From: Arthrobacter jinronghuae
Lineage (GTDB): Bacteria; Actinomycetota; Actinomycetes; Actinomycetales; Micrococcaceae
DNA: 64,000 bases
NCBI RefSeq assembly: GCF_025244825.1
Contig: NZ_CP104263.1
Coordinates: 3,534,001-3,598,000 of the forward strand
Direction of reading: 5' to 3'
The notes beneath the pieces were generated by a model. The model did no database searches and was not told the origin of the DNA. It saw only the letters and a list, made by a program, of their open reading frames with translations. Position numbers and translations under genes: made by a program. Each line of letters begins with the position of its first letter. Position 1 is the stretch's first letter. Positions 15,267-48,614 of this stretch are shown here, one piece after another.

Positions 15267-15369
15267 CAAAACAGGTGGTCCGGGCTATTGATAACCCGTG
15301 AGTGCTCTGGTGTCCTGATCAGGCGGTCCAGCAGCGGGCCGAACCTGCTGCTGAAAACCCGTGCTGCTC

Positions 15370-16164
15370 ATGAGCGCTTTCTCCGGTGTTCCGTCCTCCC
15401 TGCTTCCATTTGAAAAAGCCCGCCAGGCACGCGGTGACCTGCAGCAGGCACTGCACAACGAACTTGTCCTCCGGTACCGGGAAATCGCGGAAACGGCTGC
15501 CGCCGCCTACGCGGGGCGGGGACGTGAGCTGGCGGACCTGCGCCAGGTCGCGTACATGGGACTAATCAAGGCGGTTCGCCGCTTTGACCCTGCCGTCGGC
15601 CCGCACTTTCCGGCCTTCGCGGTTCCCACCATTCATGGAGAGCTCAAGCGCTACCTCCGGGATCACTCCTGGGTAGTCCGGCCCCCGCGGCAGCTCCAGG
15701 ACCTGCGGACCGCCATCGCCAGGCTGCAACCGGAACTCCTGCAGACGCTGGGGCGGGAGCCGTCGCTCCGTGAATTGTCCGAGGCGTTGGGAGTCACCAC
15801 GAAAGCCGTTTCGGAAGCACTGAACTGCCAGAGCAGTCTTCGCCCGGAATCCCTGGAAGCGCTGGCAGACACCACCGGCGCCGAGCAATGGGCCGTAGCC
15901 GACGGGCGGCTGGAACGGGCCGAAAACCTTGCCATGCTCCGCCGCGCCGTGCGGAACCTGACGGATCAGGACAAGGAACTGTTGTTCCTGCGGTATTTCC
16001 ACGAGGAATCCCAGCAGGCCATCGGAGAACGGCTGGGCCTGACCCAGATGCAGGTCTCCCGCGGACTGGCGAGGATTCTGGTGCGGCTGCAGCATGAATT
16101 GCTGGGTGCTTCCACGCTCAACCAAGCCGCGACTCCCGCGGTCGGGGGCAGTGCAACCGCCTGA
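15370..16164 (+). CDS. SigB/SigF-type alternative sigma factor
   Basis: A 264-residue sigma-70 factor with regions 2, 3 and 4: region 2 (DLRQVAYMGLIKAVRRFDP and FPAFAVPTIHGELKRYLRD, about 55-105), region 3 (about 110-170) and region 4 (LTDQDKELLFLRYFHEESQQ and an HTH IGERLGLTQMQVSRGLARIL, about 200-245). This is the layout of stress and sporulation-type sigma factors (SigB/F/G). No anti-sigma or anti-anti-sigma gene is adjacent, which is unusual for the group. The start is uncertain: GTG at 15361 is an alternative. Confidence 0.87.
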   Translation: MSAFSGVPSSLLPFEKARQARGDLQQALHNELVLRYREIAETAAAAYAGRGRELADLRQVAYMGLIKAVRRFDPAVGPHFPAFAVPTIHGELKRYLRDHSWVVRPPRQLQDLRTAIARLQPELLQTLGREPSLRELSEALGVTTKAVSEALNCQSSLRPESLEALADTTGAEQWAVADGRLERAENLAMLRRAVRNLTDQDKELLFLRYFHEESQQAIGERLGLTQMQVSRGLARILVRLQHELLGASTLNQAATPAVGGSATA

Positions 16165-16222
16165 ACCGCCGCGCGGCCCGCACCTGCCCGCATACCGTAC
16201 GGAGCCCTGTTACCGTTCCACC

Positions 16223-17257
16223 ATGGATCCCGCCGCCGCTCCGAAAACCAGCACCCCGGAAAAGACAGTCCCGTTAGCCACCGTCCCGCCCAAACTGGCC
16301 AAAGGCGACCTGCTGCGCGTCATTGCTCCGGCGGCGAGCCGCGCCATGGTGGCCGAACACGATCACAGCGCACTCATCGAGCGCCGCTTCGCCGGCCTGG
16401 GCCTGCGGCTTTCCTACGGCCGCCACGTGGATGAGCGCGACATTTTCGACTCCACATCGGTCGCCTCCCGCGTTGCCGACCTGCATGACGCGTTTGCGGA
16501 TCCGGAGGTCAAGGGCATCCTGACCGTCATCGGCGGCTTCAACAGCAATGAACTGCTCCCCTATCTGGATTGGGACCTGATTGCCGCCAATCCGAAGATC
16601 CTGTGCGGATACTCCGACATTACGGCGCTGCAGAACGCGATTTTCGCCCGCACCGGCCTGGTGACCTATTCCGGTCCGCATTGGTCCAGCTTCGGCATGC
16701 GGGACCATTTTGACCTAACCCAGCAGTGGTTCGTGGACGCCCTGGTGGACGGCTACCGGATGGAGCTTGCCCCCTCCGCGGAGTGGATCGACGATGCCTG
16801 GTTCCTGGACCAGGACAACCGCAGTCCCCGGCCGGGGAGCGGATGGTGGAACCTGCAGCAAGGCGCCGCATCCGGCCGTATTATCGGCGGGAACCTGTGC
16901 ACGCTGAACCTCCTGCAGGGCACCGCGCAGATGCCTCCGCTGGCCGGCTCCGTGCTCATGCTGGAAGACGATGAAGCCACCGATCCCAGGACCTTTGCCC
17001 GTGACCTCACCTCCCTGCTCCAGCAGCCGGACGCGGAAGATATCCAAGGCCTGGTCATCGGCAGGTTCCAGGCGTCCAGCGGCATCACCCTGCCGCATCT
17101 GCAGGAGATCGCGGCGCAGCCTGCCCTGGCGGGCCTGCCGGTTCTGGCCAACGTGGACTTCGGGCACACCCAGCCGCAGCTGACCCTGCCGATCGGCGGC
17201 CGCGCGGAACTGACCGTGGACGCATCCGGCGGCCGGCTTCGCCTGAGCGACCGCTAG
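16223..17257 (+). CDS. S66-family peptidase (LD-carboxypeptidase / MccF-like)
   Basis: A 344-residue Ser-Glu-His peptidase of family S66, which cleaves L,D bonds in cell-wall peptides or detoxifies microcin C-type aminoacyl nucleotides. The nucleophile is Ser131 in GYSDITAL; a glutamate (MLEDDE) and the C-terminal histidine in VDFGHTQPQL are visible. The longer insertion with GSGWWNLQQGAASGRIIGGN is typical of the MccF branch. The ATG at 16223 was chosen over an open upstream frame that overlaps the sigma factor gene. It converges on the GT9 gene with a 4-bp overlap. Confidence 0.87.
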   Translation: MDPAAAPKTSTPEKTVPLATVPPKLAKGDLLRVIAPAASRAMVAEHDHSALIERRFAGLGLRLSYGRHVDERDIFDSTSVASRVADLHDAFADPEVKGILTVIGGFNSNELLPYLDWDLIAANPKILCGYSDITALQNAIFARTGLVTYSGPHWSSFGMRDHFDLTQQWFVDALVDGYRMELAPSAEWIDDAWFLDQDNRSPRPGSGWWNLQQGAASGRIIGGNLCTLNLLQGTAQMPPLAGSVLMLEDDEATDPRTFARDLTSLLQQPDAEDIQGLVIGRFQASSGITLPHLQEIAAQPALAGLPVLANVDFGHTQPQLTLPIGGRAELTVDASGGRLRLSDR

Positions 17258-18192
17258 AGCGCCTCGAGCTTCTCCACGGCGGCCAGGACGTCCTCTACCG
17301 TGACCGCCAGCAGCGCGGGGTCCGGATCCGTGGCGAAGGTGTCTCCGCGGCGTCGGCTGCCGTCGGTCAGGGCGATGTGCGGCCCCGGCGGCGGACCCCA
17401 TTCGCTGACCGGCGCCGGGCCGAACAGGACCACCGACGGCCGGGCATAGGCCGATGCCAAGTGTGCGGCTCCGGTATCGGCCGAGATCACGAGCCGGGAC
17501 CGGGAAATCACGGCGGCGAACTCGTCCAGCCGAAGCTCACCGGCCACCACGCGCTCCGCCCCAAGCCCGGCGGCGTCGGCGACGGCGAGCGCCCGCTGCC
17601 GCTCGGCCCCGCTGCCCGTAAAGAGAATCGGGAAACCTGCGGCGTCCAGTTCACGGGCGACGTCGGCAAACCGGTCCGCTGGCCAAAGCCGGCTGCCGTA
17701 GGCCGCGCCCACATGGATCACTACCGCTTCCGGCGCGTTTTCCTCCGCCGGCGGCGGCTCCAAACGGTAATCCAGCGGATCCGCAGGGATGCCGTGCCAG
17801 GACAGCAATCCTGCCCACCGCTCCCGTTCGTGGACACCGTCCTTCCACGGCGGACCGTCCCACCCGGGTCCCGCATGACCGATCCGGCGACCGGGCTGCA
17901 GCGCCTCGATCCGGCTGCAGCTCTCCGGACCGCTGCCGTGCAGGTTCACGGCAACGTCGATTAGTCCGGGCGCGAGCGGAATGGGCACATCCAGGCCGTG
18001 CAGGGGAAGCAGGTCATCCACGGCCCCGGTGAGCGGCAGGATGGGACGCAGCCACTCCTGCGCCGCGTACCGGATGCGGTGCTCCGGATACTCCCGCCGC
18101 AGGGCCTTCAGCGCCGGAACCGCGACCAGCAGATCCCCGAGTTTCAGGGCTCGCAGCACCAGTAGTTCGGGACGGTCGGCCACCTCGGGCAT
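17254..18192 (-). CDS. Glycosyltransferase family 9 (heptosyltransferase-like)
   Basis: A 312-residue GT9 protein, the family of ADP-heptose:LPS heptosyltransferases. It has the N-terminal LRALKLGDLLVAVPALKAL motif and the C-terminal donor-binding region around VISADTGAAHLASAYARPSVVLFGP. GGAAGGAA precedes the ATG at 18192. It is divergent from the gmhB-GT9-GT4 cluster, sharing a 157-bp promoter region. The neighbourhood points to a heptose donor; acceptor unknown. Confidence 0.88.
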   Translation of the reverse strand: MPEVADRPELLVLRALKLGDLLVAVPALKALRREYPEHRIRYAAQEWLRPILPLTGAVDDLLPLHGLDVPIPLAPGLIDVAVNLHGSGPESCSRIEALQPGRRIGHAGPGWDGPPWKDGVHERERWAGLLSWHGIPADPLDYRLEPPPAEENAPEAVVIHVGAAYGSRLWPADRFADVARELDAAGFPILFTGSGAERQRALAVADAAGLGAERVVAGELRLDEFAAVISRSRLVISADTGAAHLASAYARPSVVLFGPAPVSEWGPPPGPHIALTDGSRRRGDTFATDPDPALLAVTVEDVLAAVEKLEAL

Positions 18193-18319
18193 GGGCGCAG
18201 TTTCCTTCCGGTCGGGTCGACTCCTGCCAGAACGTCCACATCCTGCCAGAAGATTGTGCCGCGGGATACGGGTGGGGCGGCAGTTCCGGCTGGCAAAGAA
18301 GTGATTCGCGCGGTGTTTA

Positions 18320-18340
18320 GTTCCCCTTCCGGCGGGGAAC
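18320..18340. promoter_or_regulatory. Inverted repeat before the gmhB-like gene
   Basis: GTTCCCC (18320-18326) and GGGGAAC (18334-18340) form a perfect 7-bp inverted repeat ending 9 bp before the start codon of the first gene of the rightward heptose operon. It could be an operator or an mRNA hairpin blocking translation. Confidence 0.45.
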
Positions 18341-18349
18341 AGATGCGGT

Positions 18350-18883
18350 ATGGGAATCTTCCGGCCGCCGCCGCGTGCCGTTCTGTTTGACCGGGACGGC
18401 ACGCTCATCGTTGACGTGCCTTACAACGCGGACCCGGCGCGGGTGTGGCCGATGCCCGGCGCCGCCGAGGTGCTGGCCGGGCTGCGGCGTTCCGGCGTGC
18501 CCATCGGGGTCATCACGAACCAGTCCGGCATCGGCCGCGGATTGCTCTCCGCCGACGAGGTAGCCGGTGTCAACGCAGCAGTCGAAGATCTGCTGGGCCC
18601 GTTCGACGTCTGGGAAATCTGCCCGCATGCTCCGGGCTTCGGCTGCATCTGCCGCAAGCCGCGGCCGGGCATGGTGCTGCGGGCCAGCCGGCGCCTGGGA
18701 CTCGATCCGGTGGAAGTAGCCGTGATCGGCGATATCGGTATCGATATGCGGGCTGCGGCCGCAGCCGGTGCGCGCGGGGTTCTGGTGCCCACCGTCGTGA
18801 CCCGGGCCGAAGAAACCGCTGCGGCAAAGTTCGTGGCCCGGGACCTCGCGGGTGCGGTTGACCTGCTCTGGGGTCCCGGGTGA
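18350..18883 (+). CDS. gmhB: HAD-IIIA phosphatase, GmhB-like (heptose-bisphosphate phosphatase)
   Basis: A 177-residue HAD phosphatase. The catalytic aspartates are Asp14 and Asp16 in FDRDGTL; TNQSGIGRG and GDIGIDM are the other HAD motifs. The zinc loop typical of GmhB is present as Cys91, His93, Cys99, Cys101 (CPHAPGFGCICRKPRPGM) but with a shorter loop than in E. coli GmhB. It probably removes the 7-phosphate of manno-heptose 1,7-bisphosphate, made by the hldE-like enzyme downstream. A histidinol-phosphatase role is less likely given the neighbours. GTGA overlap with the next gene. Confidence 0.85.
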   Translation: MGIFRPPPRAVLFDRDGTLIVDVPYNADPARVWPMPGAAEVLAGLRRSGVPIGVITNQSGIGRGLLSADEVAGVNAAVEDLLGPFDVWEICPHAPGFGCICRKPRPGMVLRASRRLGLDPVEVAVIGDIGIDMRAAAAAGARGVLVPTVVTRAEETAAAKFVARDLAGAVDLLWGPG

Positions 18884-19941
18884 GCCGCCGGGTACTCGTG
18901 GCTCGGCTCGACGGGGCCGGCGACGTGCTGCTCGCCGGACCTGCCGTCCGGGCGGTGGCCGCGGCTCCGGGTGTGGAAGCGGTGCTGCTGTGCGGACCGC
19001 AGGGTGCGCAAGCCGGGCGGCTGCTGCCCGGCGTCACACAGGTACTCGAGTGGTCCTGTCCCTGGATTCTGAATCCCGCTCCGGCCCCCTCCCCCGCCCT
19101 GCTTCAGGACCTGCGGGAGGTAGTCGCCGCCTCCCGGGCCGAGGAAGCGGTGATCCTCACGTCCTTCCACCAGTCCCCGCTGCCACTGGCCTTGCTGCTC
19201 CGCGAAGCCGGGGTACGCACCGTTACGGGGGCGTCCACCGATTACGCCGGGGCGCTGCTGACGCACCGGCTCAAACCCGGGGAGGACTTCCCTGAAGACC
19301 AGCCGGAGGCGGAGCGCGCGCTGCGGATCGCTGCCGCCGCAGGTTTTCCGCTTCCCGCCGGCGACGACGGCCGGCTGCGGCTGGGACCGCTGCCCGATGT
19401 CTCCCACCTGGTGGGCACCGGACCCTACATCGTGGTGCATCCCGGCGCTGCGGTGCCGGCCCGGGCCTGGCCGGCGCTGCACCATGCCGCCGCCGTCGAG
19501 CTGCTCACCGCCGCCGGGTTCCGCGTGGTGGTCACCGGCGGCCCCGGGGAGAAGGAGCTGACCGCCACCGTGGCGGCCGTGGCAGGCCTGGATCTGGGCG
19601 GACGCACCGATCTGGCCGCGCTGGCGGCGGTCCTGGCCGGAGCGGATGCGGTGGTGGTTGGAAACACCGGACCGGCCCATCTGGCGGCCGCCACAGGCAC
19701 TCCGGTGGTGAGCCTCTTCGCGCCCGTGGTGCCCGCCATCCGGTGGGCCCCCTACCGGGTGCCGCTGGAACTGCTGGGGAACCAGCACGCTGCCTGCAGC
19801 GGAACCCGTGCCCGGATCTGCCCGGTGCCCGGGCATCCCTGCCTCTCCGGTGTTTCCCCCGAGCAGGTGGTGGAAGCCGTGCAGCGCCTGGTCACCGGTG
19901 TGCCGTCGCTGCAGACCCACCGCGAAATGAGGCACCGATGA
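18880..19941 (+). CDS. Glycosyltransferase family 9 (heptosyltransferase-like)
   Basis: 353 residues of the GT9 heptosyltransferase family: VLVARLDGAGDVLLAGPAVRAV at the N-terminus, IVVHPGAAVPARAWPALHHA mid-protein, and VVVGNTGPAHLAAATGTPVVSLFAP in the donor-binding half. A Cys-containing tail (CSGTRARICPVPGHPC) resembles heptosyltransferase C-termini. Start GTG at 18880 overlaps the previous stop as GTGA, and its own stop overlaps the next ATG, so it is part of a tightly coupled operon. Confidence 0.9.
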   Translation: MSRRVLVARLDGAGDVLLAGPAVRAVAAAPGVEAVLLCGPQGAQAGRLLPGVTQVLEWSCPWILNPAPAPSPALLQDLREVVAASRAEEAVILTSFHQSPLPLALLLREAGVRTVTGASTDYAGALLTHRLKPGEDFPEDQPEAERALRIAAAAGFPLPAGDDGRLRLGPLPDVSHLVGTGPYIVVHPGAAVPARAWPALHHAAAVELLTAAGFRVVVTGGPGEKELTATVAAVAGLDLGGRTDLAALAAVLAGADAVVVGNTGPAHLAAATGTPVVSLFAPVVPAIRWAPYRVPLELLGNQHAACSGTRARICPVPGHPCLSGVSPEQVVEAVQRLVTGVPSLQTHREMRHR

Positions 19942-20966
19942 GGATCCTGTTGTGGCACGTGCACGGCGGCTGGATGGAGGCGTTTGTCCGCGGCGCGCAC
20001 GAATACCTGCTGCCGGCTACCCCGGCGCGGGACGGCTGGGGGCTGGGCCGCGGCGGCCGCCCCTGGCCGGAATCCGTCGTGGAAGTGGCGCCGGAAGATC
20101 TGCGTGCCCAGCAGATCGACGTTGTGCTGCTGCAGCGTCCCGAGGAGATCGAGGCCTGCACCCGCCTGCTCGGCCGGCGGCCCGGCCGGGACATTCCGGC
20201 GGTGTATCTGGAACACAACACCCCGCGCGGCAACGTGCCCGAGACCCGGCATCCGCTGGCCGGACGGACGGACATCCCGGTTGTGCATGTCACGCAGTTC
20301 AACCGCCTGTTCTGGGATAACGGGAGGGCACCGGTACGGGTGATCGAACACGGCATCCCCGACCCCGGCTACCTCTACACCGGGGAGCGCCCGCATCTGG
20401 GGGTGGTGGTGAACGAGCCGGTCCGCCGCAGCCGGGTGGCCGGCACCGATCTCCTGCCGCAGTTTGCCCGGACCGCACCGCTGGAAGTCTTCGGGATGGG
20501 CACGGACCGGCTGCCCGGGGTGCTGGGCGGAGACCGGCTGCTGATCCGCGGCGACCTGCCGGTGACCAGGCTGCACCGGGAGCTGGCCGGCTGCCGGGCC
20601 TACCTGCACCCGATGCGCTGGACCTCGCTGGGGCTGTCCCTGCTTGAGGCCATGCATCTGGGACTGCCGGTCCTGGCCCTTGCGACCACCGAAGCGGTCC
20701 GGGCGGTTCCGCCGGAGGCGGGGGTGGCCAGCAACGATCCCGAGGAGCTGCTCCGGGCGGTGCGGATGTTCCTGGCCGAGCCCGAGCGGGCACGCATCTG
20801 CGGCCGGGCAGCCCGTGCGGCGGCGCTGTCCCGGTACGGGCTGGACCGGTTCCTGTCCGACTGGGACGCGCTCTTCGCGGACCTGCTGACCCAGGCGGTT
20901 TCCGCTGCATCGTTCAATCCGGCGGCGGGAACCGCACCGGCATCAACAGGAGGGGGGCAACAGTGA
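19938..20966 (+). CDS. GT4-like glycosyltransferase
   Basis: 342 residues with a GT-B fold pattern. The C-terminal half has [26 protein letters not shown], the usual donor-site glutamate region of GT4 enzymes, and the N-terminal half begins with [16 protein letters not shown]. It probably adds a sugar to the glycan built by this operon; donor and acceptor unknown. It overlaps its neighbours by ATGA and GTGA junctions. Confidence 0.85.
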
Positions 20967-22219
20967 GAATCTCAATGGTGTCCGAACACGCAAGTCCGCT
21001 GGCCGCGCTGGGCGGCGTGGATGCCGGCGGCCAGAACGTGCATGTGGCCGCGCTGTCCGTGGCGCTGGCCGCCCGCGGCCACACCGTGCAGGTGTACACG
21101 CGGCGGGACGATCCCGGGCTCCCGGACCGGGTGCAGGTGCAGGACGGCCTGGAGGTAGTGCATGTGACCGCCGGTCCGGCCCTGCCGCTGCCCAAGGATG
21201 ACCTGCTGCCGTACATGGGACAGCTGGCCGACGGCGTCCTCGCTGACTGGGGAACCGAACCGCCCGACGTCGTGCACTCGCACTTCTGGATGTCCGGCCT
21301 CGCCTCGCTGGAGGCGGCCCGCAACGCCGGGGACGAGGGCGTGCCGGTGGTCCACACCTTCCACGCCCTGGGCACCGTGAAAAAACGGCATCAGGGCGCC
21401 GAGGACACGTCCCCGCCGGAACGGGCCTGGCTTGAGCCCTCCGTGGGCCGGCGTGCGGACCGGGTGCTGGCGACCTGTTCGGACGAGGTCTTCGAACTCA
21501 AGGCCATGGGGGTGCCGACCAACCGGATTTCCATTGCGCCCTGCGGCGTGGATTTGTCCCTCTTCTCTTCCACCGGGCCGGCGGAACCGCGCGGACGGCG
21601 GCACCGGATTGCCGCCGTCGGGCGCCTGGTGCCGCGCAAGGGTGTGGACCTGGCCATCCGCGCCCTGGCGCTGCTGCGGGACGAGGGCCTGGAAGATGTG
21701 GAGCTGCTGATTGTCGGCGGTTCCAGTGACAGCGCCGGACTGGAATCGGATCCGGAGGCCCGCCGGCTGCTGGCCCTGGCCCGCTCCCTGGGTGTGGCGG
21801 ACCGGGTGCTGCTCCGGGGCCAGGTTCCGCGCGAGCAAATGCCCGCGGTGCTGCGCAGCGCCGATGCCGTGGTGTGCGCGCCCTGGTATGAACCCTTCGG
21901 GATCGTGCCGCTGGAGGCGATGGCGTGCGCAGTGCCCGTTGTGGCCTCCGCAGTGGGCGGCCTGATCGACACCGTAGTCCACGGCAAGACCGGCCTCCAT
22001 GTGCCGCCCCGGGATCCGGCCGCCCTGGCCGCCGCGCTCTCCGAGCTGCTGCAGAACCCCCGCTACGCCCGGCGGCTCGGCGCAGCGGGCAAACAGCGTG
22101 CCTCCGCCCGCTACTCCTGGGACCGGGTGGCACTGGACACGGAGAAGGCCTATCAGCTGGCCCTGGGCGCCGCCGCGAGGCCCGGACGGCTGCAGCCGCT
22201 GGGAGGGAAGGCGCTGTGA
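20963..22219 (+). CDS. Glycosyltransferase family 4
   Basis: 418 residues, a clear GT4 GT-B enzyme. N-terminal [20 protein letters not shown] with [14 protein letters not shown] is the acceptor-side motif seen in sucrose synthase/MshA-like members. The C-terminal half has [16 protein letters not shown] and the E-x7-E donor site in PSWYEPFGI-like [17 protein letters not shown]. Translationally coupled to both neighbours by GTGA overlaps. Confidence 0.92.
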
Positions 22220-22842
22220 GCATCGAATCCCCTGTCACCGCTCCCGTCGTCGTGCCGGAGCAGGCCGTGCTGGACCACCTGGCCCAGGCGCAGCCCGCCC
22301 TGCTCTCCGTCCAGCGTCAGGCCCGGCACCTGACGGAATGGGGTCTTGAGCTGGCGGCCCGCCTCTTTGCCGGGCACCGGCTGCTGACCGCGGGAAACGG
22401 CGGGTCCGCGGCCGAAGCCCAGCACCTGAGCGCGGAACTGGTGGGACGGTTCGACGGCGAGCGCCGCCCGTTTTCCGCCATCGCCCTGCATGCCGAAACC
22501 TCAGCCGTGACGGCTATCGCCAACGATTACGGCTTCGACCAGCTCTACGCCCGGCAGGTGCAGGGCCACGGCAGGCCCGGCGACGTGCTCATCCTCTTCT
22601 CCACCAGCGGCGCCAGCCCCAACCTGCTGGCCGCGGTGCAGGCCGCGCACAGCGCAGGGCTGCGGACCTGGGCCCTGACCGGCCGGGTGCCGAATCCGCT
22701 CGCGGCGGCCTGCGAGGACTTCATTGCCATTGATGCGCCGGCAGCAAATGCGCAGGAGGCCCATCTGGTGGCCCTGCATGCCCTCTGCCGGTCCTTTGAC
22801 GCCGAAATCGAACGGCTCACCAATGCAGGAGGAACCGCGTGA
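22216..22842 (+). CDS. gmhA: SIS-domain sedoheptulose-7-phosphate isomerase-like
   Basis: 208 residues matching GmhA, which converts sedoheptulose 7-phosphate into glycero-manno-heptose 7-phosphate, the first committed step of nucleotide-heptose synthesis. The signature [20 protein letters not shown] and the following [21 protein letters not shown] are characteristic, as is the STSGASPN phosphate loop. GTG start at 22216, GTGA overlaps on both sides; it is directly followed by the kinase/nucleotidyltransferase. Confidence 0.9.
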
Positions 22843-24203
22843 AGACAATAGTTGTGGTGGGTGATGTCCTGCTGGACACGGACATTTCCGGCTCGGCCCG
22901 GCGCCTCTCCCCCGACGCGCCGGTACCCGTGGTGGACGTGGACGACGTCGGACGCCGGGCAGGTGGAGCGGGCCTGGTGGCACGCCTGCTGGAACGGGAC
23001 GGTCGGCGGGTCCACCTGGTGACGGTGCTCTCCGACGACGACGCGTCCGGACAGCTGAGGACCGCGCTGGCCGGCATCCCCCTGACCTGCGGACCGTCCG
23101 AGGCGCCCACCCCGGTCAAGACGCGGATCCGGGCCGGCACCCACGCCGTGGTCCGCTTCGACCAGGGCTGCTCCCCCGCCCCGGTCCCGGCGGTCACTGC
23201 ACAGATGCTGTCCGTGGTCGCGGCAGCCGATGCAGTGGTGGTCGCCGACTACGGCCGCGGGCTCACGGCCAATCCGGCCCTCCGGGACCTGCTGGGAACC
23301 CTGGCCCGGCGTATTCCCGTGGTCTGGGACCCGCATCCGGCCGGGGCTGATCCGGTGCCCGGGGTCGCGGCTGTCACACCGAACCTCGCCGAGGCCCTGT
23401 CCGCTGCCGGGGAGGCACCGGGCGGGGTTCCGGCGGCACTTCGCGCGGCGGAAAAGCTGCTCACCCGGTGGCAGAGCCAATCCGTGGTGCTCACCATGGG
23501 GGCGCATGGCGCGCTGGCACTCCCCGCCGCGGGCCTGGCGCAGATCCTTCCCGCCCCGAAGATTTCCGCGGAGGACACATGCGGTGCCGGGGACCGGTTT
23601 GCCGCTTCCCTCACCGTGCGGCTGCTCGACGGCGACGGGCTGGAAACCGCCGCCGAAGCCGCGGTGCAGGCGGCGGCCTCCTTCCTGGCCGCCGGCGGCG
23701 TGGCCGGACTGGAGGCGGAGGACCCCCTGCAAATGTTCGTCAGCGGGACACCGGACGCGATGGCGACGGCGGCGCGGGTCCGGGAGCGCGGCGGAACCGT
23801 GGTGGCCACCGGAGGCTGCTTCGACCTGCTCCACGCCGGACATGCCCGCACTCTGCTGGCGGCCCGGGGGCTGGGCGATTGTTTGATTGTCTGCCTGAAC
23901 TCCGACGATTCCGTCCGGCGGCTCAAAGGTGAGCAGCGCCCGATCATCGGTGCCGAGGACCGGGCGGAACTGCTGCAGTCACTGGAATGCGTGGACGGGG
24001 TCCTGGTCTTCGAGGAGGACACCCCGGCGGCAGTGCTGGAGCGGCTGCGCCCTGACATCTGGGTCAAGGGCGGCGACTACCGCGAAGACCAGCTCCCGGA
24101 GGCCGCGCTGATCCGATCTTGGGGCGGGGAAACCGTCACCGTCCCCTTCCATCCCGCCCGTTCCACCACCGCACTGGCCTCCGCGCTGGCGAAGGTCGGC
24201 TGA
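22839..24203 (+). CDS. hldE: Bifunctional heptose-7-phosphate kinase / heptose-1-phosphate nucleotidyltransferase (HldE-like), copy 1
   Basis: 454 residues: a PfkB sugar kinase domain (about 1-300, with ATP motif DTCGAGDRFAAS) and a cytidylyltransferase-fold domain (about 318-454, with GGCFDLLHAGHARTL and LNSDDSVRRLKG). In E. coli this fusion phosphorylates heptose 7-phosphate and then makes ADP-heptose. The kinase motif carries Arg where most PfkB kinases have Thr (GAGDRF instead of GAGDTF). A second copy lies at 45955. It is coupled to gmhA by a GTGA overlap. Confidence 0.9.
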   Translation: MKTIVVVGDVLLDTDISGSARRLSPDAPVPVVDVDDVGRRAGGAGLVARLLERDGRRVHLVTVLSDDDASGQLRTALAGIPLTCGPSEAPTPVKTRIRAGTHAVVRFDQGCSPAPVPAVTAQMLSVVAAADAVVVADYGRGLTANPALRDLLGTLARRIPVVWDPHPAGADPVPGVAAVTPNLAEALSAAGEAPGGVPAALRAAEKLLTRWQSQSVVLTMGAHGALALPAAGLAQILPAPKISAEDTCGAGDRFAASLTVRLLDGDGLETAAEAAVQAAASFLAAGGVAGLEAEDPLQMFVSGTPDAMATAARVRERGGTVVATGGCFDLLHAGHARTLLAARGLGDCLIVCLNSDDSVRRLKGEQRPIIGAEDRAELLQSLECVDGVLVFEEDTPAAVLERLRPDIWVKGGDYREDQLPEAALIRSWGGETVTVPFHPARSTTALASALAKVG

Positions 24204-24272
24204 GCAAGCCGCTCCCTGTTTCCGCTGCCCCTACCCGTTCCGCTCCGTTCCGTTCCGCCGAAAGGAAGTCCC

Positions 24273-25064
24273 ATGAGCCTGTCCCCCGTGGCCCCCGCGC
24301 CGGTCGCCCTCCCCGGTCCTTTGCCGGATCCTGTGCCGGTCCCGGACCCCCTCCTCCCAACTCTTCCCCTTCCCGCGGTGTTCACCGGCCGGGTGCTGGT
24401 TACCGGTGGCGCCTCCGGGCTGGGTGCCGCCGTCAGCGCCGCCGTGACCGCCGCCGGCGGCAGCGTGGTGGTGCTGGACCGCGATATCAGCGCCGTCACG
24501 GAGGTCAAGGCCGTGCAGGTGGACGTGGCGGACCGCGCCGGCGTGGAAGCGGCCGTACAGGAGGCAGCGCAGATCCTGGGTGGACTCGATGCCGTGGTCA
24601 CCGCCGCCGGCATTGACCGCTGCGGCCGGCTTGAAGACGTGGCGGCGGAGGAATGGGAGAAGGTCATCGGCGTGAACCTGCTGGGCACCGTCTCCGTGGT
24701 CCGCGCCGCACTGCCCTATCTGGCCGCCTCCCACGGCCGCGTCATCACCGTGGCCTCCACACTGGGGCTCAAGGCCGTCTCGGATGCGACGGCGTACTGT
24801 GCCTCCAAGTTCGGGGTGATCGGCTTCAGCCGGGCCCTTGCCGCCGAAACCCGCGGCCGTGTGGGTGTGACCACCATGATTCCCGGCGGCATGAAGACGC
24901 GGTTCTTCGACGACCGCACCGAGCAGTACCGCCCGCAGGACGATTCCCGGCTCAATGATCCGCGCCGGGTGGCCGACGCCATCCTGTTTGCCCTGTCCCA
25001 GCCCGCCGGCTGCGAGGTCCGCGAAATGCTGATCTGCCACGAGGAGGAGGATTCCTGGCCCTGA
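24273..25064 (+). CDS. Short-chain dehydrogenase/reductase in the heptose cluster
   Basis: 263 residues, classical SDR with the cofactor motif TGGASGLG (about 44-51), NAG-like TAAGI, and catalytic Tyr175-x3-Lys179 (YCASK). The first 35 residues are a Pro-rich extension. It is too short and of the wrong SDR type for the HldD epimerase, so the epimerase step is either absent or done elsewhere. GAAAGGAAG precedes the ATG; the 69-bp gap to hldE lets it be part of the same operon or separately expressed. Confidence 0.85.
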   Translation: MSLSPVAPAPVALPGPLPDPVPVPDPLLPTLPLPAVFTGRVLVTGGASGLGAAVSAAVTAAGGSVVVLDRDISAVTEVKAVQVDVADRAGVEAAVQEAAQILGGLDAVVTAAGIDRCGRLEDVAAEEWEKVIGVNLLGTVSVVRAALPYLAASHGRVITVASTLGLKAVSDATAYCASKFGVIGFSRALAAETRGRVGVTTMIPGGMKTRFFDDRTEQYRPQDDSRLNDPRRVADAILFALSQPAGCEVREMLICHEEEDSWP

Positions 25065-25085
25065 GCCTGGCCCGGCGCGTGCCGG

Positions 25086-26024: not shown

Positions 26025-26037
26025 GGCCGATAGTAGC
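26007..26037. promoter_or_regulatory. Near-palindrome with face-to-face -10 elements over overlapping start codons
   Basis: GCTATTATC (26007-26015) mirrors GATAGTAGC (26029-26037) with one mismatch; the centre, 26022, falls on the overlapping divergent start codons. The arms contain -10-like hexamers TATTAT (plus, 8 nt before ATG 26023) and TACTAT (minus, 5 nt before ATG 26024). Both genes may be leaderless, and the arms may be the MocR operator. Confidence 0.55.
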
Positions 26038-27438: not shown

Positions 27439-27441
27439 ACG

Positions 27442-27732
27442 TTACGGCCCGGCCCGCCCGACAGTGTCCCGCTGCGACACTCCCCCAATTCCGTCCGTGC
27501 GGTCGTCCGCCGCAACCGTTCCGTTCGGTTCCGGCTCCCAGCGCAGCAGGTCCCCGGGCTGGCAGTCCAGTACCTCGCACAACGACGCCAGGGTGGTGAA
27601 CCGCACCGCCTTGGCGCGGCCGTTCTTCAGCACGGCCAGGTTCGCCGGGGTGATGCCGATCCGCTCGGCAAGCACGCCCACGGGCATTTTGCGCTTCGCC
27701 AGCATCACGTCGATGTCCACAACGATCGGCAT
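27442..27732 (-). CDS. XRE-family (YozG-like) transcriptional regulator
   Basis: 96 residues with a Cro/CI helix-turn-helix (about 10-65: VLAERIGITPANLAVLKNGRAKAVRFTTLASLCEVLDCQPGDLL). Such small regulators are regularly paired with DUF2975 membrane proteins, as here: its ATG overlaps the DUF2975 stop by one base (TGATG). Probable autoregulation through repeats upstream of the pair. Confidence 0.9.
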   Translation of the reverse strand: MPIVVDIDVMLAKRKMPVGVLAERIGITPANLAVLKNGRAKAVRFTTLASLCEVLDCQPGDLLRWEPEPNGTVAADDRTDGIGGVSQRDTVGRAGP

Positions 27733-28223: not shown

Positions 28224-28246
28224 CACGCTCTCCCTACGGGACCACT

Positions 28247-28282
28247 TCGATTGAAGGACAATCAATACTTATCGACAATCGA
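28247..28282. promoter_or_regulatory. Repeated GACAATC / TCGATTG sites upstream of DUF2975-XRE
   Basis: GACAATC occurs at 28257-28263 and 28274-28280 (17-bp spacing), and TCGATTG (28247-28253) mirrors CAATCGA (28276-28282). The cluster lies 25-60 bp upstream of the DUF2975 start and is the likely operator of the XRE regulator. Confidence 0.5.
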
Positions 28283-43160: not shown

Positions 43161-44315
43161 TTAGCCCAGCAGCTCGTCGACGTCGGCCCACACCTCTGCT
43201 GCCCGCACTTCCGCCACAAACGAGTCGTCATGTTCGCACCGCTCCGCCGTCCAGCCGACCTGCGTGACGTCGGCCTTGCAGGTGGGGCACTCCGACACCC
43301 AGGACATGTGCACCCGGTGCCGGGTGCGGCCCATCGCCCCGGCGTTGACGACGTTGCCGAACCAGTAGATGCCCACCGTGGCGGCTCCAACCGCCTGCGC
43401 CAGGTGCCGGGGCCCGCTGTCATTGCCCACCATCACCGCACTGGCCTGCAGCAGGGCTGCGAGCGTGCCGATGCCCAGTTCGCCGGCCAGCGAGCGGACG
43501 GGCACCTCGGGTCCGGCCGCCGCGAGCGCCCGGTCCACAACCTCCTGCGCGAGGCCCCGGTCGGCGTCGTCGCCCACCACCACCACCTGGCAGCCCCGGG
43601 CGACGGCACGCACCGCCACCTCCGCGAAGCACGACGCCGGCCACCGCCGCCGCGGGTCCGTGGCCCCGGGATGCAGGCTCACCAGGTTCCGGTCCGGCAA
43701 TAGCAGGGCCCGCGCCGCTGCTGCCTCTTCAGGCAGGACGGGCAGCTGCGCGTCGAGGCTGACAGGGGCGGCTCCGGCGAGCCCGGCCACTTCCAGGGCC
43801 CGGAAGACCTCGTGCTGGTAGTAGATGTAGGGGATGTTCCGTTCCAGGGCGGCGGCATCGGGGGTGCGGGTCCCTACTGTGTGCCGTGCCCCCAGGCGGA
43901 GCAGGAAGGGGTTCGAGTTCCGGCCGCCGCCGTGCACCTGGACGGCCAGGTCGAACCGCTCCCGCTGCATCCGGGCCAGGAACGCCTCGACGGCCTCCGG
44001 GTCCTCCGGTCCGGAGGCAATGCCGGGGGCGGCTGGCAGGACCTCCACCCGCTGCACCGGTCCGGGCCGGTTCGCCAGGAGGGCGGCGTGCAGCGCAGTG
44101 CCAAGCAGTGTGATGGATGCGGACGGATACGCGGCGGCGAGCGCTTCGACCGCAGGCAGGGCGAACATCAGGTCCCCCAGCCCTCCGCCGCGCAGCACGG
44201 CGATTTTCTCCACATTCGGAAAGGGCACGGCCAGGGGGCCGACCCCGCGGACAAGTCCCGGCCGGTCCCCCCGGGGCTGCAGCGGCCCGCACTGTTCCGT
44301 GGTCTTCTGCTTCAT
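43161..44315 (-). CDS. Glycosyltransferase family 9 (heptosyltransferase-like), second heptose locus
   Basis: 384 residues, GT9: VEKIAVLRGGGLGDLMFALPAVEAL near residue 35, LVSLHPGATDPRRRWPASCFAEVA, and VMVGNDSGPRHLAQAVGAATVGIYW. The C-terminus has a Cys cluster (CPTCKADVTQVGWTAERC) unlike the other two GT9 proteins here. GAAAGGAAG precedes the ATG at 44315. It is divergent from the ALDH-hldE-GT2 genes, mirroring the layout of the first locus. Confidence 0.9.
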   Translation of the reverse strand: MKQKTTEQCGPLQPRGDRPGLVRGVGPLAVPFPNVEKIAVLRGGGLGDLMFALPAVEALAAAYPSASITLLGTALHAALLANRPGPVQRVEVLPAAPGIASGPEDPEAVEAFLARMQRERFDLAVQVHGGGRNSNPFLLRLGARHTVGTRTPDAAALERNIPYIYYQHEVFRALEVAGLAGAAPVSLDAQLPVLPEEAAAARALLLPDRNLVSLHPGATDPRRRWPASCFAEVAVRAVARGCQVVVVGDDADRGLAQEVVDRALAAAGPEVPVRSLAGELGIGTLAALLQASAVMVGNDSGPRHLAQAVGAATVGIYWFGNVVNAGAMGRTRHRVHMSWVSECPTCKADVTQVGWTAERCEHDDSFVAEVRAAEVWADVDELLG

Positions 44316-44503
44316 TGGGCTTCCTTTCGCCGAGGACCCGCGCGCGCGGTCTGCCCCGTGGGCACTCACCATAGGTGCTGGCGACGCCGGACCCAAGGGA
44401 GGTGTTTACTCCAGGTGAGCCGGGCCCGCACCTGCTTGCCCCGCCTGTCTGAACCCGCCGGAAACGGGGTATGGGAGCTATACAACGCGCGAGAAGGAGC
44501 AGC

Positions 44504-45958
44504 ATGTCCACCACCATTCAGCCGCCGGCTCCCCCGCCCGCTTCCCCGCCCGCTTCCCCGATGGACCCCAACGGTTCCCTCGAGCCGATCACCATTTTCG
44601 ATCCGCGGGACGGAACCCTGGTGGGTCGGATGGAGCAGGACGGACGGGACGGCATCCGAGCCGCCGTGGCGGCAGCCCGCGGCGCCCTCCCCGGGTGGGC
44701 AGGCACCGACCCCGGCGAGCGGGGACGCCTCTTGCGCGCCGCTGCCGCTGCCCTGGAACTGCGGGCCGCCGAAATGGCCGCGTGGAACACCCGCGAGACC
44801 GGACGGCCGGAGACTGAGGCCCTTGCCGGGGTGCAGGCCGGGGTGGCCACGTTGGAGCAGTACGCCGAACTCGGTCCGGTGCACCGGGGGCACAGCCTCC
44901 GCGGTGCCGCACTGGCTGCGGATTACACGGTAACCGGGCCGCGCGGCGTCGCCGTTGTGCTGACCCCCTGGAACGACCCGGTGGCCGTGGCCGCCGGGTT
45001 GATCGGCGCGGCGCTGGCCACCGGGAACACGGTAATTGCCAAGCCCAGCGAGCGTTCGCCCCACACCGGGAAACTGCTCGGGGAAATCCTCGCCCCGGTG
45101 TTCCCCGCGGGTGTCCTGACAACACTCGCCGGCGGGGCGGATGTGGGTGCCCAGCTGAGCATGGAGGCAGGGGTGGACGTCCTGGCGCACGTGGGTTCCA
45201 GTGCAACCGGCGCGAGGATTGCCCGGGCGGCTGCGCTGACGGGAGCCCACGTCATTCTTGAGAACGGCGGCAACGATCCGCTGCTGGTTGATGCGGATGT
45301 GGACCCGCGATGGGCGGCCGGACAGGCAGCTGTCGGGGCATTCAGCAACAGCGGCCAGATCTGTACCTCGGTGGAGCGCATCTACGTGCACCGGAACATC
45401 GCGGATGCGTTCTGCGCCGAGCTCATTGCCGAAGCGCGGCGACGTAATCGGGAGGGTGCGGTGGCGCCCCTTGTGGATGCCCGGCTCCGCGACACCGTGC
45501 ACCAGCAGATAACCCAGGCGCTGGTCCGCGGCGCCACGATTGCGGAGGGCGGCGTGTTGCCGGAAGGACCCGGTGCCCACTACCCCGCGACCGTCCTGCT
45601 GAACTGTTCGGCCGGGATGGAGGTCTTCGACGCCGAAACGTTCGGCCCCGTGGCCCCCATCCAGGTGGTGGACAGCTTCGACCACGGGCTCGCCCTGGCA
45701 GCTGCGGGGCCCTACGGACTGGCCGCCACTGTCTTGACGGGCAGCATTGCTCACGTGCAGCAGGCAGTGGCGGCCCTGGACGTGGGCACCGTGAATATCA
45801 ACGCCGTCTTCGGCGGCGCCCCGGGAGGCTCGGCGCAGCCCCGGCGCCGGAGCGGCCGCGGCTTTGGCTACGGCCCGGAACTCCTGGACGAGTTCTCCCT
45901 GGTAAAGGTGGTCCACGTCGGTTCCCCGGGCACCGCGGCACCGGGAATACCGGAGTGA
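44504..45958 (+). CDS. Aldehyde dehydrogenase in second heptose locus
   Basis: 484 residues, NAD(P)-dependent aldehyde dehydrogenase with catalytic Cys287 (SNSGQICTS), Glu253 (ILENGGND, where most members read LELGGK) and VVLTPWNDPV. The N-terminal 20 residues are Pro-rich. GAGAAGGAG precedes the ATG. GTGA overlap couples it to the hldE-like gene, so its aldehyde substrate may belong to sugar metabolism, but this is unproven. Confidence 0.9.
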   Translation: MSTTIQPPAPPPASPPASPMDPNGSLEPITIFDPRDGTLVGRMEQDGRDGIRAAVAAARGALPGWAGTDPGERGRLLRAAAAALELRAAEMAAWNTRETGRPETEALAGVQAGVATLEQYAELGPVHRGHSLRGAALAADYTVTGPRGVAVVLTPWNDPVAVAAGLIGAALATGNTVIAKPSERSPHTGKLLGEILAPVFPAGVLTTLAGGADVGAQLSMEAGVDVLAHVGSSATGARIARAAALTGAHVILENGGNDPLLVDADVDPRWAAGQAAVGAFSNSGQICTSVERIYVHRNIADAFCAELIAEARRRNREGAVAPLVDARLRDTVHQQITQALVRGATIAEGGVLPEGPGAHYPATVLLNCSAGMEVFDAETFGPVAPIQVVDSFDHGLALAAAGPYGLAATVLTGSIAHVQQAVAALDVGTVNINAVFGGAPGGSAQPRRRSGRGFGYGPELLDEFSLVKVVHVGSPGTAAPGIPE

Positions 45959-47523
45959 CGGACTTCCGGAACCCCGGGGAGGTTCGCAGCCTCGCGCCAG
46001 GGCTGCCTGACCGTCTCGCGGCAGCCTCCCTGCGCATAGCGGTCATCGGCGACGTGATGCTGGATGGCTGGTGGTCCGGGGTCACCGAACGGTTCTGCCG
46101 GGAGGCGCCGGCACCCGTGGTGGATGTGCAGCGGAAGGACTACGCACCCGGCGGTGCGGCAAACACCGCCATGAACCTGCAGGCCCTCGGTGCACGGGTG
46201 CGGCTTGGCGGACTGACCGGCACCGACGCCGCCGGGGACCGGCTGCGCAGCATTCTGGCCGAGGCGGGCGTGGACCTGCGCGGGCTGGTGCAGCACCCCG
46301 ATGCCGCGACCGCCACGAAGGACCGGATTGTCGCCGCGGAACAGGTACTGTTCCGGCTCGACGACGGCGGGCGGTTCCCGGCCGAGGCAGCAGAACTGCT
46401 GGCGGCCTCCGTGCCTGCATTGCTGGCGGACGCCGATGCATTGGTGGTCTGCGACTACGGCACCGGGCTGCTGCACGGCGCCGTCCGAGACGCCCTGGTG
46501 GCACTGCGCGGCGGTCGCCTCACCGTCGTGGATGCCCACGACGCCGCGGGCTGGGCCGCTCTGGCGCCCGACCTGGTCACACCGAATGCCGCCGAAGCCG
46601 CGCAACTGCTGGGCGGGACAAAGCCGCTCGGGCCGGACCGTGCCGCAGCGGTTCGCACCTATGCACCGGACCTGCTGGCCGCCGCCGGTGCGGCAGCGGC
46701 AGCTGTCACCCTGGACCGCGACGGCGCGGCCGTGATCGGCGCCGACGGCGGGTTCCACCGCACCTGGGCGCGTCCCGCTGCCGAAAAACAGGCGTCGGGA
46801 GCAGGTGACACCTTCGTTGCCTGCCTGACACTGGCTCGTGCCGCAGGGCTGCCGCTGTCCACCGCTGCGGACCTGGCGCAGAACGCCGCCGATATTGTTG
46901 TCCAGCGGCCCGGGACCTCCGTGTGCAGCACCGCCGACCTGGAAAAGCATCTGGACGGCTTTGCCGACACGGCGCTCAGCCAGGCGGATCTCCTGGCCCG
47001 GACCGCCGTCGAACGGGCTGCCGGGCGCAGGATTGTCCTGACCAACGGCTGCTTCGACGTCCTGCACCGCGGGCATACCCGGTACCTGAACCAGGCCAAG
47101 CAGCTCGGTGACATCCTGGTGGTCGCCCTGAACAGCGACGCGTCCGCCCGCCGGCTGAAAGGACCGGGCCGTCCCATCAATCCCGTCCATGACCGGGCCG
47201 GGATCATCGCAGCGCTCAGCTGCGTGGACTACGTGACCGTGTTCGAGACGGACACCCCGATTCCGCTCATCCGGGAACTGCGGCCGGATATTTACGCCAA
47301 GGGCGGGGACTACTCCGCGCAGATGCTGGCGGAGACCCCGGTGGTGGAGGAGTGCGGCGGCCGGGTGCTGATCCTGGACTACGTCTCCGACCACTCCACC
47401 ACTGCCTTGGTGTCCCGGATCCGGTCGGGCGGCACCGCGAATGATGCCGGGGAGACCGGCGGGAACCCTGCGGGCAGCGGCGGCATTGCCGCAGGCGGGA
47501 ACAATCCCGGGGACCCGCCGTGA
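45955..47523 (+). CDS. hldE: HldE-like kinase/nucleotidyltransferase, copy 2
   Basis: 522 residues: a PfkB kinase (about 25-330, with RIAVIGDVMLDGWW, APGGAANTAMNL and GAGDTF) and a cytidylyltransferase domain (about 355-490, TNGCFDVLHRGHTRYL, LNSDASARRLKG, KGGDYS). Unlike copy 1, it has the standard GAGDTF and GGAAN motifs, so it looks like the better-conserved enzyme. A Gly/Asn-rich tail of about 30 residues follows. GTG start overlaps the ALDH stop, and its stop overlaps the GT2 start. Confidence 0.92.
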   Translation: MTDFRNPGEVRSLAPGLPDRLAAASLRIAVIGDVMLDGWWSGVTERFCREAPAPVVDVQRKDYAPGGAANTAMNLQALGARVRLGGLTGTDAAGDRLRSILAEAGVDLRGLVQHPDAATATKDRIVAAEQVLFRLDDGGRFPAEAAELLAASVPALLADADALVVCDYGTGLLHGAVRDALVALRGGRLTVVDAHDAAGWAALAPDLVTPNAAEAAQLLGGTKPLGPDRAAAVRTYAPDLLAAAGAAAAAVTLDRDGAAVIGADGGFHRTWARPAAEKQASGAGDTFVACLTLARAAGLPLSTAADLAQNAADIVVQRPGTSVCSTADLEKHLDGFADTALSQADLLARTAVERAAGRRIVLTNGCFDVLHRGHTRYLNQAKQLGDILVVALNSDASARRLKGPGRPINPVHDRAGIIAALSCVDYVTVFETDTPIPLIRELRPDIYAKGGDYSAQMLAETPVVEECGGRVLILDYVSDHSTTALVSRIRSGGTANDAGETGGNPAGSGGIAAGGNNPGDPP

Positions 47524-48614
47524 CGCGCCGCTGGTCCGGGGACTGGGCCGGCCCGCCCGGTTCGGGCAGCGCGGCGGAGGTGGACGTGCTGATTCCGACC
47601 CGCAACCGGCCGGCCGAACTCGCGGTCACCCTCGCGGGGCTGGCCGCGCAGGACGGGCCGGACTTCGCCGTCGTTATCAGCGACCAAAGTACCGATGTCC
47701 CGTCCTGGAACCATCCGGCCGCGGAAGCGATGGTCCGGGTCCTGGAGGCGCAGGGCCGTCCGGTCCGGCTCCTGAGGCACCTGCCGGCGCGGGGGCTGGC
47801 CGAACAGCGGCACTTCCTGCTGGGACAGTCCGGTGCTCCGCAGGTCCTGTTCCTGGACGACGACGTCTGGCTGGAACCGGACATGCTGGCCCGGCTGACG
47901 GCGGCCCTGGCGTCGTCCGGCGGCGGATTCGTGGGGGCGGCCGTGCAGGGACTGTCCTATCTCGCCGACCGGCGGCCTGAGGAACAGCAGCCGTTCGAGG
48001 TGTGGGAAAACGGACAGGTGCAGCCGGAACGGATTCGCCGCAGCCAGCCGGGCTTCTCGCGTTGGACCCTGCACAACGCGGCGAATCTGGCGCATGTGGC
48101 TTCCGGCCTCGGCATCCCGCCGGGAGAATGGCGGTTGTACCGGATCGCCTGGGTGGGGGCCTGCGTCCTCTATGACCGGCAGGCACTGCTTGAGTGCGGA
48201 GGCTTCGGATTCTGGGACCAGCTGCCGCCCGGGCACGCCGGGGAGGACGTTGCAGCCCAGTGGCGGGTGATGGAAAGGTTCGGCGGCGCCGGGATGGTTC
48301 CCTCCGGTGCAGTCCACCTGGAGTCACCGACCACGGTTACCGACCGGTCCGCTGACGCCGCCGAGCTCATCCTGGGCACCGCCGAGTACAACCCGTCCAT
48401 CAGCAACCACAAAGGAGAACGCATGGCCGAGAAACCCAGCCCGATTGACGTGCAGAAAACCCTCGGAGGCCTGGACTATCCGGCCTCGAAGGAGGACATC
48501 GTGAAAAAGGCCGAGGGGGCGGGCGCCGAAGGCACCGTTCTGGAGGCGCTAAAGAACCTGCCGGAGCGCCAATACGACGCACCGACGGACATCAGCAAGG
48601 AGATTTTCGACTAG
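47520..48614 (+). CDS. GT2 glycosyltransferase fused in frame to a DUF2795 domain
   Basis: 364 residues: an N-terminal GT-A (GT2) domain (about 20-300) with VDVLIPTRNRPAELAVTLAGL and the metal motif FLDDDVW, then, without a stop codon, a DUF2795 domain (about 302-364, AEKPSPIDVQKTLGGLDYPASKEDIVKKAEG). DUF2795 is normally a free 60-70 aa protein. A full ribosome binding site and ATG occur at the junction, so the tail may also be made alone. It may add a sugar to the heptose-linked glycan. Confidence 0.88.
   Translation: MTRRWSGDWAGPPGSGSAAEVDVLIPTRNRPAELAVTLAGLAAQDGPDFAVVISDQSTDVPSWNHPAAEAMVRVLEAQGRPVRLLRHLPARGLAEQRHFLLGQSGAPQVLFLDDDVWLEPDMLARLTAALASSGGGFVGAAVQGLSYLADRRPEEQQPFEVWENGQVQPERIRRSQPGFSRWTLHNAANLAHVASGLGIPPGEWRLYRIAWVGACVLYDRQALLECGGFGFWDQLPPGHAGEDVAAQWRVMERFGGAGMVPSGAVHLESPTTVTDRSADAAELILGTAEYNPSISNHKGERMAEKPSPIDVQKTLGGLDYPASKEDIVKKAEGAGAEGTVLEALKNLPERQYDAPTDISKEIFD
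48410..48614 (+). CDS. Possible independent DUF2795 protein (internal start at 48423)
   Basis: AAAGGAGAACGC directly precedes ATG 48423 inside the GT2 frame. Translation from there gives the usual 63-residue DUF2795 protein with no extra residues. This suggests two separate genes whose boundary stop codon was lost. The span given includes the ribosome binding site. Product role unknown. Confidence 0.6.

Follow-up and report, generated by a model that had tools for sequence, protein, structure and literature searches.

Several bacterial systems make heptose or use enzymes related to its biosynthesis. The lipopolysaccharide (LPS) inner-core pathway combines GmhA, HldE, GmhB, and HldD with WaaC and WaaF, and in bleomycin biosynthesis the HldE-like sugar synthase BlmC, the GT9-like transferase BlmE, the epimerase BlmG, and the carbamoyltransferase BlmD are reported to handle mannose and gulose. 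Tang and colleagues are said to have described tridomain nucleoside diphosphate heptose (NDP-heptose) synthetases of actinobacteria in 2022. The septacidin pathway of Streptomyces is reported to use NDP-heptose (PMC11461863), and two commentaries on Tang et al. (2024), one of them by its authors, report that Arg in fifth position of the motif (F/L)XXGXSTT marks enzymes that also take CTP and UTP (PMC11461863, PMC11573728). The discovery authors call the purpose of CDP- and UDP-heptose elusive, and NDP-heptoses are reported to activate ALPK1 (PMC11573728). Here, we analyze a 64-kb stretch of DNA from the soil bacterium Arthrobacter jinronghuae (the window), part of a complete single-contig 3.64-Mb genome that the whole-genome negatives below cover in full, and describe a 13-gene accessory island, split in this genome, which we propose (with a probability of roughly 0.6) makes and uses NDP-D-glycero-D-manno-heptose under its own SigB/SigF-type sigma factor.

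Two halves present or absent together

A preliminary description had read a single cluster at 17254–25064 as a nucleotide-heptose pathway with GT9 glycosyltransferases. Every gene it reported is real and lies there, and an NDP-heptose pathway beside GT9s in a genome without LpxC stands by homology, but the cluster is only half of the island: a sigma gene, a second HldE, a third GT9, and with them a whole second half (43161–48422) had been missed. Searching the genome with the first HldE (HldE1) retrieved the second (HldE2) between an aldehyde dehydrogenase (ALDH) and a GT2 gene, with the third GT9 divergent, and a PF01075 search of the whole genome found three GT9 genes, all within the window. 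The short-chain dehydrogenase/reductase (SDR) gene of the left half and GT9c of the right are separated by 18 kb that hold other genes (EamA, PdxR, GAPDH, ROK, ABC transporter).

In four genomes of the genus (L021–L024) the island is compact, in the order sigma – GT9a(-) – gmhB – GT9b – GT4a – GT4b – gmhA – hldE1 – SDR – GT9c(-) – ALDH – hldE2 – GT2, with ALDH and GT2 unmatched in L021 and several matches fragmented in L023. At the latter locus (genome G013), hldE2 is in two pieces at 4998–6445, GT9a, GT9b, GT4a, and GT2 are likewise divided, and hldE1 is whole; the fragmented genes are possibly broken or reflect sequencing errors. Across 25 genus genomes, both HldEs occur in 13, neither in 12, and a single one in none. 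The genes flanking the compact block are directly adjacent in G003, G001, and G005, forming an empty site, while G012 and G018 carry the GAPDH and ROK genes of the window's intervening block with both half-sites empty. A MATE plus MFS tree of 14 genomes groups G012 and G018 with the split genomes (the window, G015, and G002) at 100/100 and places G003 and G001 among island-bearing genomes. On these comparisons, the halves, though apart, were retained or lost jointly, and this in two or more places within the genus. We regard this as the best argument for a common function of the two HldEs, of which relatives lacking both halves, 18 kb distant from each other in the window, provide a natural test.

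A scan of genome contigs with HldE1 returned at least 592 stretches, and we took counts from the best 80 loci, some of them cut by contig ends or the fetched flank. With hldE1 in all 80 by construction, gmhA also occurs in 80, SDR in 79, gmhB, GT9b, GT4a, and GT4b in 78 each, hldE2 in 68, GT9a and GT9c in 62 each, the sigma gene in 56, ALDH in 53, and GT2 in 34. GT9a and GT9c are jointly present or absent in 67 of the 72 scored loci (8 of the 80 were skipped); in four of the five exceptions, all split genomes, the fetched stretch does not reach the second half, and the fifth is L052. A private role of GT9c with HldE2 is not supported, as HldE2 persists where GT9c is gone. A MATE transporter gene adjoining the island was rejected as its flippase or a member, being present in 8 of 8 island-lacking genomes, and it could still serve in export.

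Table 1. Genes and predicted promoters of the island, in window coordinates
Feature	Position	Strand	Remarks
Sigma gene (SigB/SigF/SigG-type)	15361..16164	+	Sigma70_r2/r3/r4; likely start ATG 15370
GT9a glycosyltransferase	17254..18192	-	PF01075 77.4 bits; under LPS heptosyltransferase equivalog cut-offs
Predicted promoter, gmhB operon	18315..18339	+	GTTTAG-N14-GGGAA; ends 10 nt before gmhB ATG 18350
GmhB-like HAD phosphatase	18350..18883	+	Nearest solved structure 4pnh (D,D-heptose 1,7-bisphosphate phosphatase)
GT9b, heptosyltransferase-like, GT9 of the conserved core	18880..19941	+	
GT4a glycosyltransferase, core marker gene	19938..20966	+	PF00534 40.1 bits; GT-B/GT4 fold
GT4b, MshA/sucrose-phosphate synthase group	20963..22219	+	6kih 220.5 bits; MshA 3c4q 176.7 bits
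GmhA-like SIS protein, putative sedoheptulose 7-phosphate isomerase	22216..22842	+	Best structure match 5i01, 135.8 bits
HldE1, putative kinase/nucleotidyltransferase	22839..24203	+	Arg at motif position 5; TIGR02199 183.3 bits, cut-off 181.5
Classical SDR, not HldD	24273..25064	+	PF00106 143.7 bits
GT9c glycosyltransferase	43161..44315	-	PF01075 86.1 bits
Predicted promoter, ALDH-hldE2-GT2 operon	44447..44471	+	GTCTGA-N14-GGGTA
ALDH family enzyme	44504..45958	+	PF00171 341.9 bits; ATG 44504 after GAAGGAG, read from sequence
HldE2, second putative kinase/nucleotidyltransferase	45955..47523	+	His at motif position 5; TIGR02199 193.1 bits, cut-off 181.5
GT2 glycosyltransferase	47520..48422	+	PF00535 44.8 bits

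From gmhB to hldE1, each of five successive gene pairs overlaps by 4 nt at the given starts, which points to a single transcript. The longest mechanical open reading frame of GT9a (17254–18408) begins upstream of its likely start at 18192. HldE1 is 99% identical in Arthrobacter sp. zg-Y238, the closest named record among the matches listed. A fold search with GT4a led to GT4 enzymes generally and to no specific relative, and the best 120 matches listed for GT4b carry general glycosyltransferase names only, such as D-inositol-3-phosphate glycosyltransferase. GT4b scores 259.7 bits against TIGR03449 (cut-off 462.5), and in the alignment it retains half of the presumed MshA phosphate residues (K78 and R154 kept, Y110F, T134A).

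The GT2 frame (47520–48614) continues, uninterrupted by a stop codon, into a DUF2795 gene at 48423–48614 (DUF2795 69.6 bits, one frame), which has its own AAAGGAG and an ATG at 48423; in L022, L025, and L028 the two match separately. The splitting block (25065–43160; GAPDH, ROK, ABC transporter, and others) varies in content among relatives, which suggests ready gain and loss of genes at this site. An open reading frame (16094–17257) that we take to be an LD-carboxypeptidase lies in the left half, flanked by the sigma gene and GT9a; similar frames occur in L029, L031, L032, L034, and L041–L043 and not in the compact islands. Left of the island, a surface serine-protease-like gene (11691–14138), presumably of the LPXTG type, was considered as a member and set aside, since it is kept in island-lacking genomes too (38–59% identical). 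Small genes near the island in several genera (L050, L052, L119, and L120) are, we presume, DUF3618/holin-like or SRPBCC-like, families that we take to be stress-linked.

The sigma gene and a promoter-like motif

The closest NCBIfam model to the sigma protein is TIGR02980 (SigBFG), which at 205.3 bits leads all other families by 30 bits; the next SigBFG-like matches in the genome reach 128.3 and 91.8 bits. Among the genus genomes tested, all 4 that bear the island have the gene at E 1e-30 or better, compared with none of the 8 that lack it. Reading alignments of two intergenic regions from genus loci by eye (12 and 8 sequences), we recognized GTTTAG-N14-GGGAA before gmhB and GTSTRA-N13/14-GGGTA before ALDH. 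The merged pattern, GT[TGC]T[AG][AG]-N13..15-GGG[AT]A, was tested on L047–L120, loci unused in motif discovery; for gmhB, 70 of these 74 were scored (2 dropped as edge, 2 without GmhB). The motif precedes gmhB in 38 of 50 test loci with the sigma gene compared with 1 of 20 without it, and the ALDH/hldE2 operon in 31 of 46 compared with 1 of 18. The sigma-lacking positive is L052 at both operons, and its sigma gene may have diverged or lie beyond detection. Five internal genes had no motif with the sigma gene (0 of 250) or without it (0 of 100), and in the whole window the pattern matches twice, at the starts of the gmhB and ALDH operons.

The simplest reading, and the most likely one, is a sigma factor devoted to the island that would recognize these predicted promoters. 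Several results weigh against so neat an arrangement. The sigma protein falls short of the TIGR02980 cut-off of 234.35 bits, and a genome-wide search for the N14 form of the motif is at chance level, with 11 matches (two at the island) where a backward-pattern control gave 18. A stricter SigB pattern, GTTT-N14-19-GGGTA, occurs before 2 of 75 gmhB genes, 1 of 42 GT9c genes, and nowhere else. No motif precedes gmhB in 12 of the 50 sigma-bearing test loci. Upstream of the sigma gene itself it never occurs (0 of 70), and it is rare ahead of the divergent GT9a (2 of 60) and of GT9c (4 of 45), so these genes would need another promoter. Finally, the enzymes persist in Curtobacterium, Brevibacterium, and others that have neither sigma gene nor motif, which suggests that the sigma factor is not essential to the pathway.

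Predicted pathway, distribution, and product

By homology and conserved residues, GmhA and GmhB resemble the isomerase and phosphatase of the NDP-heptose enzyme set (HBE). Of 16 distinct solved sequences matched by the GmhA structure search, 15 are of GmhA/DiaA type, and His, Glu, Gln, and His residues are kept relative to E. coli GmhA; GmhB keeps the DxD and C-H-C-C residues of its E. coli counterpart. Both HldEs have a PfkB domain with a GAGD motif in the kinase part and a nucleotidyltransferase domain over the heptose 1-phosphate cut-off of TIGR02199. No HldD passes its cut-off anywhere in the complete genome (best 92.5 bits against 274.6), which extends to the whole genome the absence noted in the preliminary description and makes the D,D form the likely donor, as proposed there. 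An HldD under another name was rejected, as the best genome match is far under cut-off and the island SDR is a classical short SDR. Together, the enzymes predict NDP-D-glycero-D-manno-heptose.

The HldE1 motif of the window, FHPARSTT, has Arg at position 5 and Ala at position 4, and the Arg recurs in 105 of the 109 HldE1 sequences scored. In HldE2 the motif is YVSDHSTT, and the 76 scored sequences have His (46), Arg (23), Gln (5), Leu (1), or Val (1) at this position, which is Cys in E. coli HldE. These counts include the window, at least two genomes occur twice, and they derive from 115 HldE1 and 84 HldE2 fragments, the unscored ones lacking a scorable motif. Given the Arg of HldE1, the donor need not be ADP-heptose, the form named in the preliminary description. 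In a tree of 47 sequences, a 100/100 branch separates HldE1 from HldE2, with E. coli HldE, a long branch, on the HldE2 side; this placement suggests old, separate lineages, and a recent duplication was rejected. Motif and tree make two donors within one regulon a reasonable idea, although the Arg in 23 scored HldE2 sequences weakens a strict split.

In the proposed mechanism, GmhA would convert sedoheptulose 7-phosphate to heptose 7-phosphate, the HldE kinase would form the 1,7-bisphosphate, GmhB would remove the 7-phosphate, and HldE would add the nucleotide, HldE1 perhaps accepting CTP or UTP besides ATP and HldE2 more likely using ATP. GT9b and the GT9a/GT9c pair would add heptose to an acceptor made elsewhere, the two GT4 enzymes and the GT2 would add further sugars, and the SDR and ALDH would oxidize or reduce a sugar or aglycone, with the island sigma factor driving the gmhB and ALDH operons from the two promoters. 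Gene content, synteny, joint presence or absence of the halves, the empty sites, and the motif with its tie to the sigma gene are read from sequence; the enzyme activities, promoter recognition by the sigma factor, heptose as the sugar, the choice of NTP, and the kind of product are inferred.

The cluster is widespread in Micrococcaceae, where the preliminary description had proposed to look for conservation, and in Microbacteriaceae, and it is patchy across the phylum. It is therefore not rare, and actinobacterial NDP-heptose enzymes are already in print. In 246 genomes sampled evenly across the phylum, GT4a occurs in 27 and an HldE1-profile match (HldE2-like sequences included) in 33; in 26 of the 27 GT4a-bearing genomes the two share a contig and lie less than 10 kb apart. 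We also compared 24 distant loci (L037–L040 and L121–L140), 20 of them drawn from this sample, picked by GT4a or HldE matches and several of them incomplete. Their commonest order is carbamoyltransferase – GT2/GmhB – GT9b – GT4a – GT4b – GmhA – HldE1 – SDR – GT9a, with carbamoyltransferase in 19, the GT2 part in 19 (fused to GmhB in one open frame in 18), GT9b and GT4a in 22 each, GT4b and HldE1 in 21 each, GmhA in 20, and SDR and GT9a in 17 each; L122–L124, L136, L137, and L139 show another arrangement. An extra extended SDR occurs in L038, L039, and L121–L124 (GDP_Man_Dehyd/Epimerase domains in L038), in some with another GT2. Carbamoyltransferase domains were confirmed in L039, and a NodU/CmcH-type carbamoyltransferase (PF02543) has no match in the window's own genome. 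The putative carbamoyltransferase WapO is reported to act on the core heptose of Pseudomonas LPS (PMC8005017), and by analogy carbamoyl-heptose is a fair guess for the clusters that bear such an enzyme.

The product would be a heptosylated oligosaccharide, most likely a glycolipid or envelope glycan, and the depth of conservation and number of transferases favor an envelope glycolipid or glycan. The wall glycan, glycolipid, or glycoprotein originally suggested is thus only a possible product; genes for an acceptor, a polymerase, or a ligase were not seen in the conserved set. Going by first residues, polymerase, ligase, and lipid-carrier genes were not seen among the 40 neighbor families found in at least 8 loci, and a hydropathy scan gave no more than one or two borderline peaks for any island protein; together with the kinship of GT4b, this suggests that assembly is probably intracellular, on an acceptor from elsewhere. 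The main rival to an envelope glycan is a soluble heptosylated specialized metabolite or small glycoside comparable to septacidin, itself reported to employ NDP-heptose. All the enzymes are of cytoplasmic type, GT4b is nearest to sucrose-phosphate synthase and MshA, which act on phosphorylated small acceptors, and an ALDH with an SDR is usual in small-molecule pathways. However, families resembling non-ribosomal peptide or polyketide synthases were not seen among the 40 neighbor families judged in that way, deep spread across a phylum is unusual for a specialized metabolite, and GT4 and GT9 enzymes often work at the membrane face without helices, and we regard a soluble product as unlikely.

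Less probable again is that the sugar is not heptose, the HldE-, GT9-, and GmhB-like enzymes having been adapted to act on a hexose or some different sugar phosphate, as the mannose- and gulose-handling enzymes of the bleomycin cassette illustrate. Several scores speak for such recruitment and against heptose: GmhA is under the TIGR00441 equivalog cut-off (137.1 against 209.45), GmhB under that of PRK08942 (108.4 against 178), and the HldE kinase domains under that of TIGR02198 (145.7 and 215.2 against 345). The HldE1 kinase also reads GGAGL, without the asparagine of the GGAAN shared by HldE2 and E. coli HldE, and might therefore act on another sugar. On the other side, nearly all 80 loci combine HldE with GmhA, which has the metal-site residues, and GmhB, which has the Cys/His loop, and both nucleotidyltransferase domains pass the heptose 1-phosphate cut-off. 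That the halves are unrelated clusters and neighbors by accident is scarcely credible: they are separated by unrelated genes in the window, and hldE2 was not seen within the fetched stretch of the Saccharothrix and Streptoalloteichus loci, but they are contiguous in four genus genomes and many other genera, agree in presence or absence in 25 of 25 genus genomes, and have a promoter motif in common.

Building on an NDP-heptose island under its own sigma factor, we tentatively suggest a more specific possibility: a monoderm, inner-core-like heptose glycolipid or glycan that would form an inducible envelope layer under a private sigma factor, draw on two separate donors, with HldE1 supplying CDP- or UDP-heptose and HldE2 ADP-heptose, and in other lineages contain carbamoylated heptose as in Pseudomonas LPS. 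If true, this would give CDP- and UDP-heptose a physiological role. The island reduces the question of their purpose to a single regulon and its probable switch, and makes the role of heptose in bacteria without an outer membrane directly testable. Because NDP-heptoses are reported to activate ALPK1, a Gram-positive source would also bear on the specificity of that immune signal.

Comparison with known systems

Word searches of an open-access collection of papers yielded no description that we recognized as this island. Heptose is not mentioned in the main text of a drought RNA-seq study of Arthrobacter sp. Helios (PMC9608346), and in Frankia a heptosyltransferase unique to tolerant strains, not shown to be an island gene, is reported to rise under salt (PMC5563000).

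With the LPS inner-core pathway the island shares the enzyme set and the GT9 fold, all three GT9s having a PF01075 domain, and its phylum-wide relatives carry a carbamoyltransferase, as Pseudomonas does in the putative WapO. It differs in that LpxC (PF03331) has no match in the complete genome (a control search found it in E. coli), in that HldD is under cut-off, and in that the GT9s lie far under the LPS heptosyltransferase I, II, and III equivalog cut-offs (best 89.0, 60.6, and 62.6 bits against cut-offs of at least 134.6). The missing LpxC agrees with the earlier expectation of a host lacking LPS; an LPS remnant or contamination was rejected on this absence, the complete single contig, and the conserved neighborhood.

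The septacidin pathway is alike in its actinobacterial use of NDP-heptose, and differs in that recurring aglycone genes were not seen beside the island. The bleomycin cassette blmC-G has a comparable nucleotide-sugar synthase and glycosyltransferase, and a carbamoyltransferase like that in relatives of the window's core; unlike the cassette, the island includes GmhA and GmhB, and the window's genome has no carbamoyltransferase match. The NDP-heptose HBEs of Tang et al. (2024), as described in PMC11461863 and PMC11573728, have the isomerase, kinase, phosphatase, and nucleotidyltransferase in common with the island, and their STTR5 Arg recurs in HldE1, whereas the island has two HldEs of separate clades and reads FHPARSTT in place of xxxGRSTT. 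The tridomain synthetases belong to the same phylum and have the same three domains, and at L038 a single open frame spans GmhA and HldE1. No such joint frame exists in the window, nor in 110 of the 111 loci scored.

Stress sigma factors of the SigB/SigF type, whose GTTT...GGGTA consensus the island motif resembles, match the island sigma factor in that their model is its nearest in NCBIfam. The island factor differs in being co-inherited with one biosynthetic island, and the genome-wide motif count suggests no further targets. NDP-heptose in actinobacteria was already known from septacidin and the tridomain synthetases; new here, as far as these literature searches show, are a two-half island with a sigma gene and a promoter pair, its paired HldE clades, and a phylum-wide, carbamoyltransferase-linked core.

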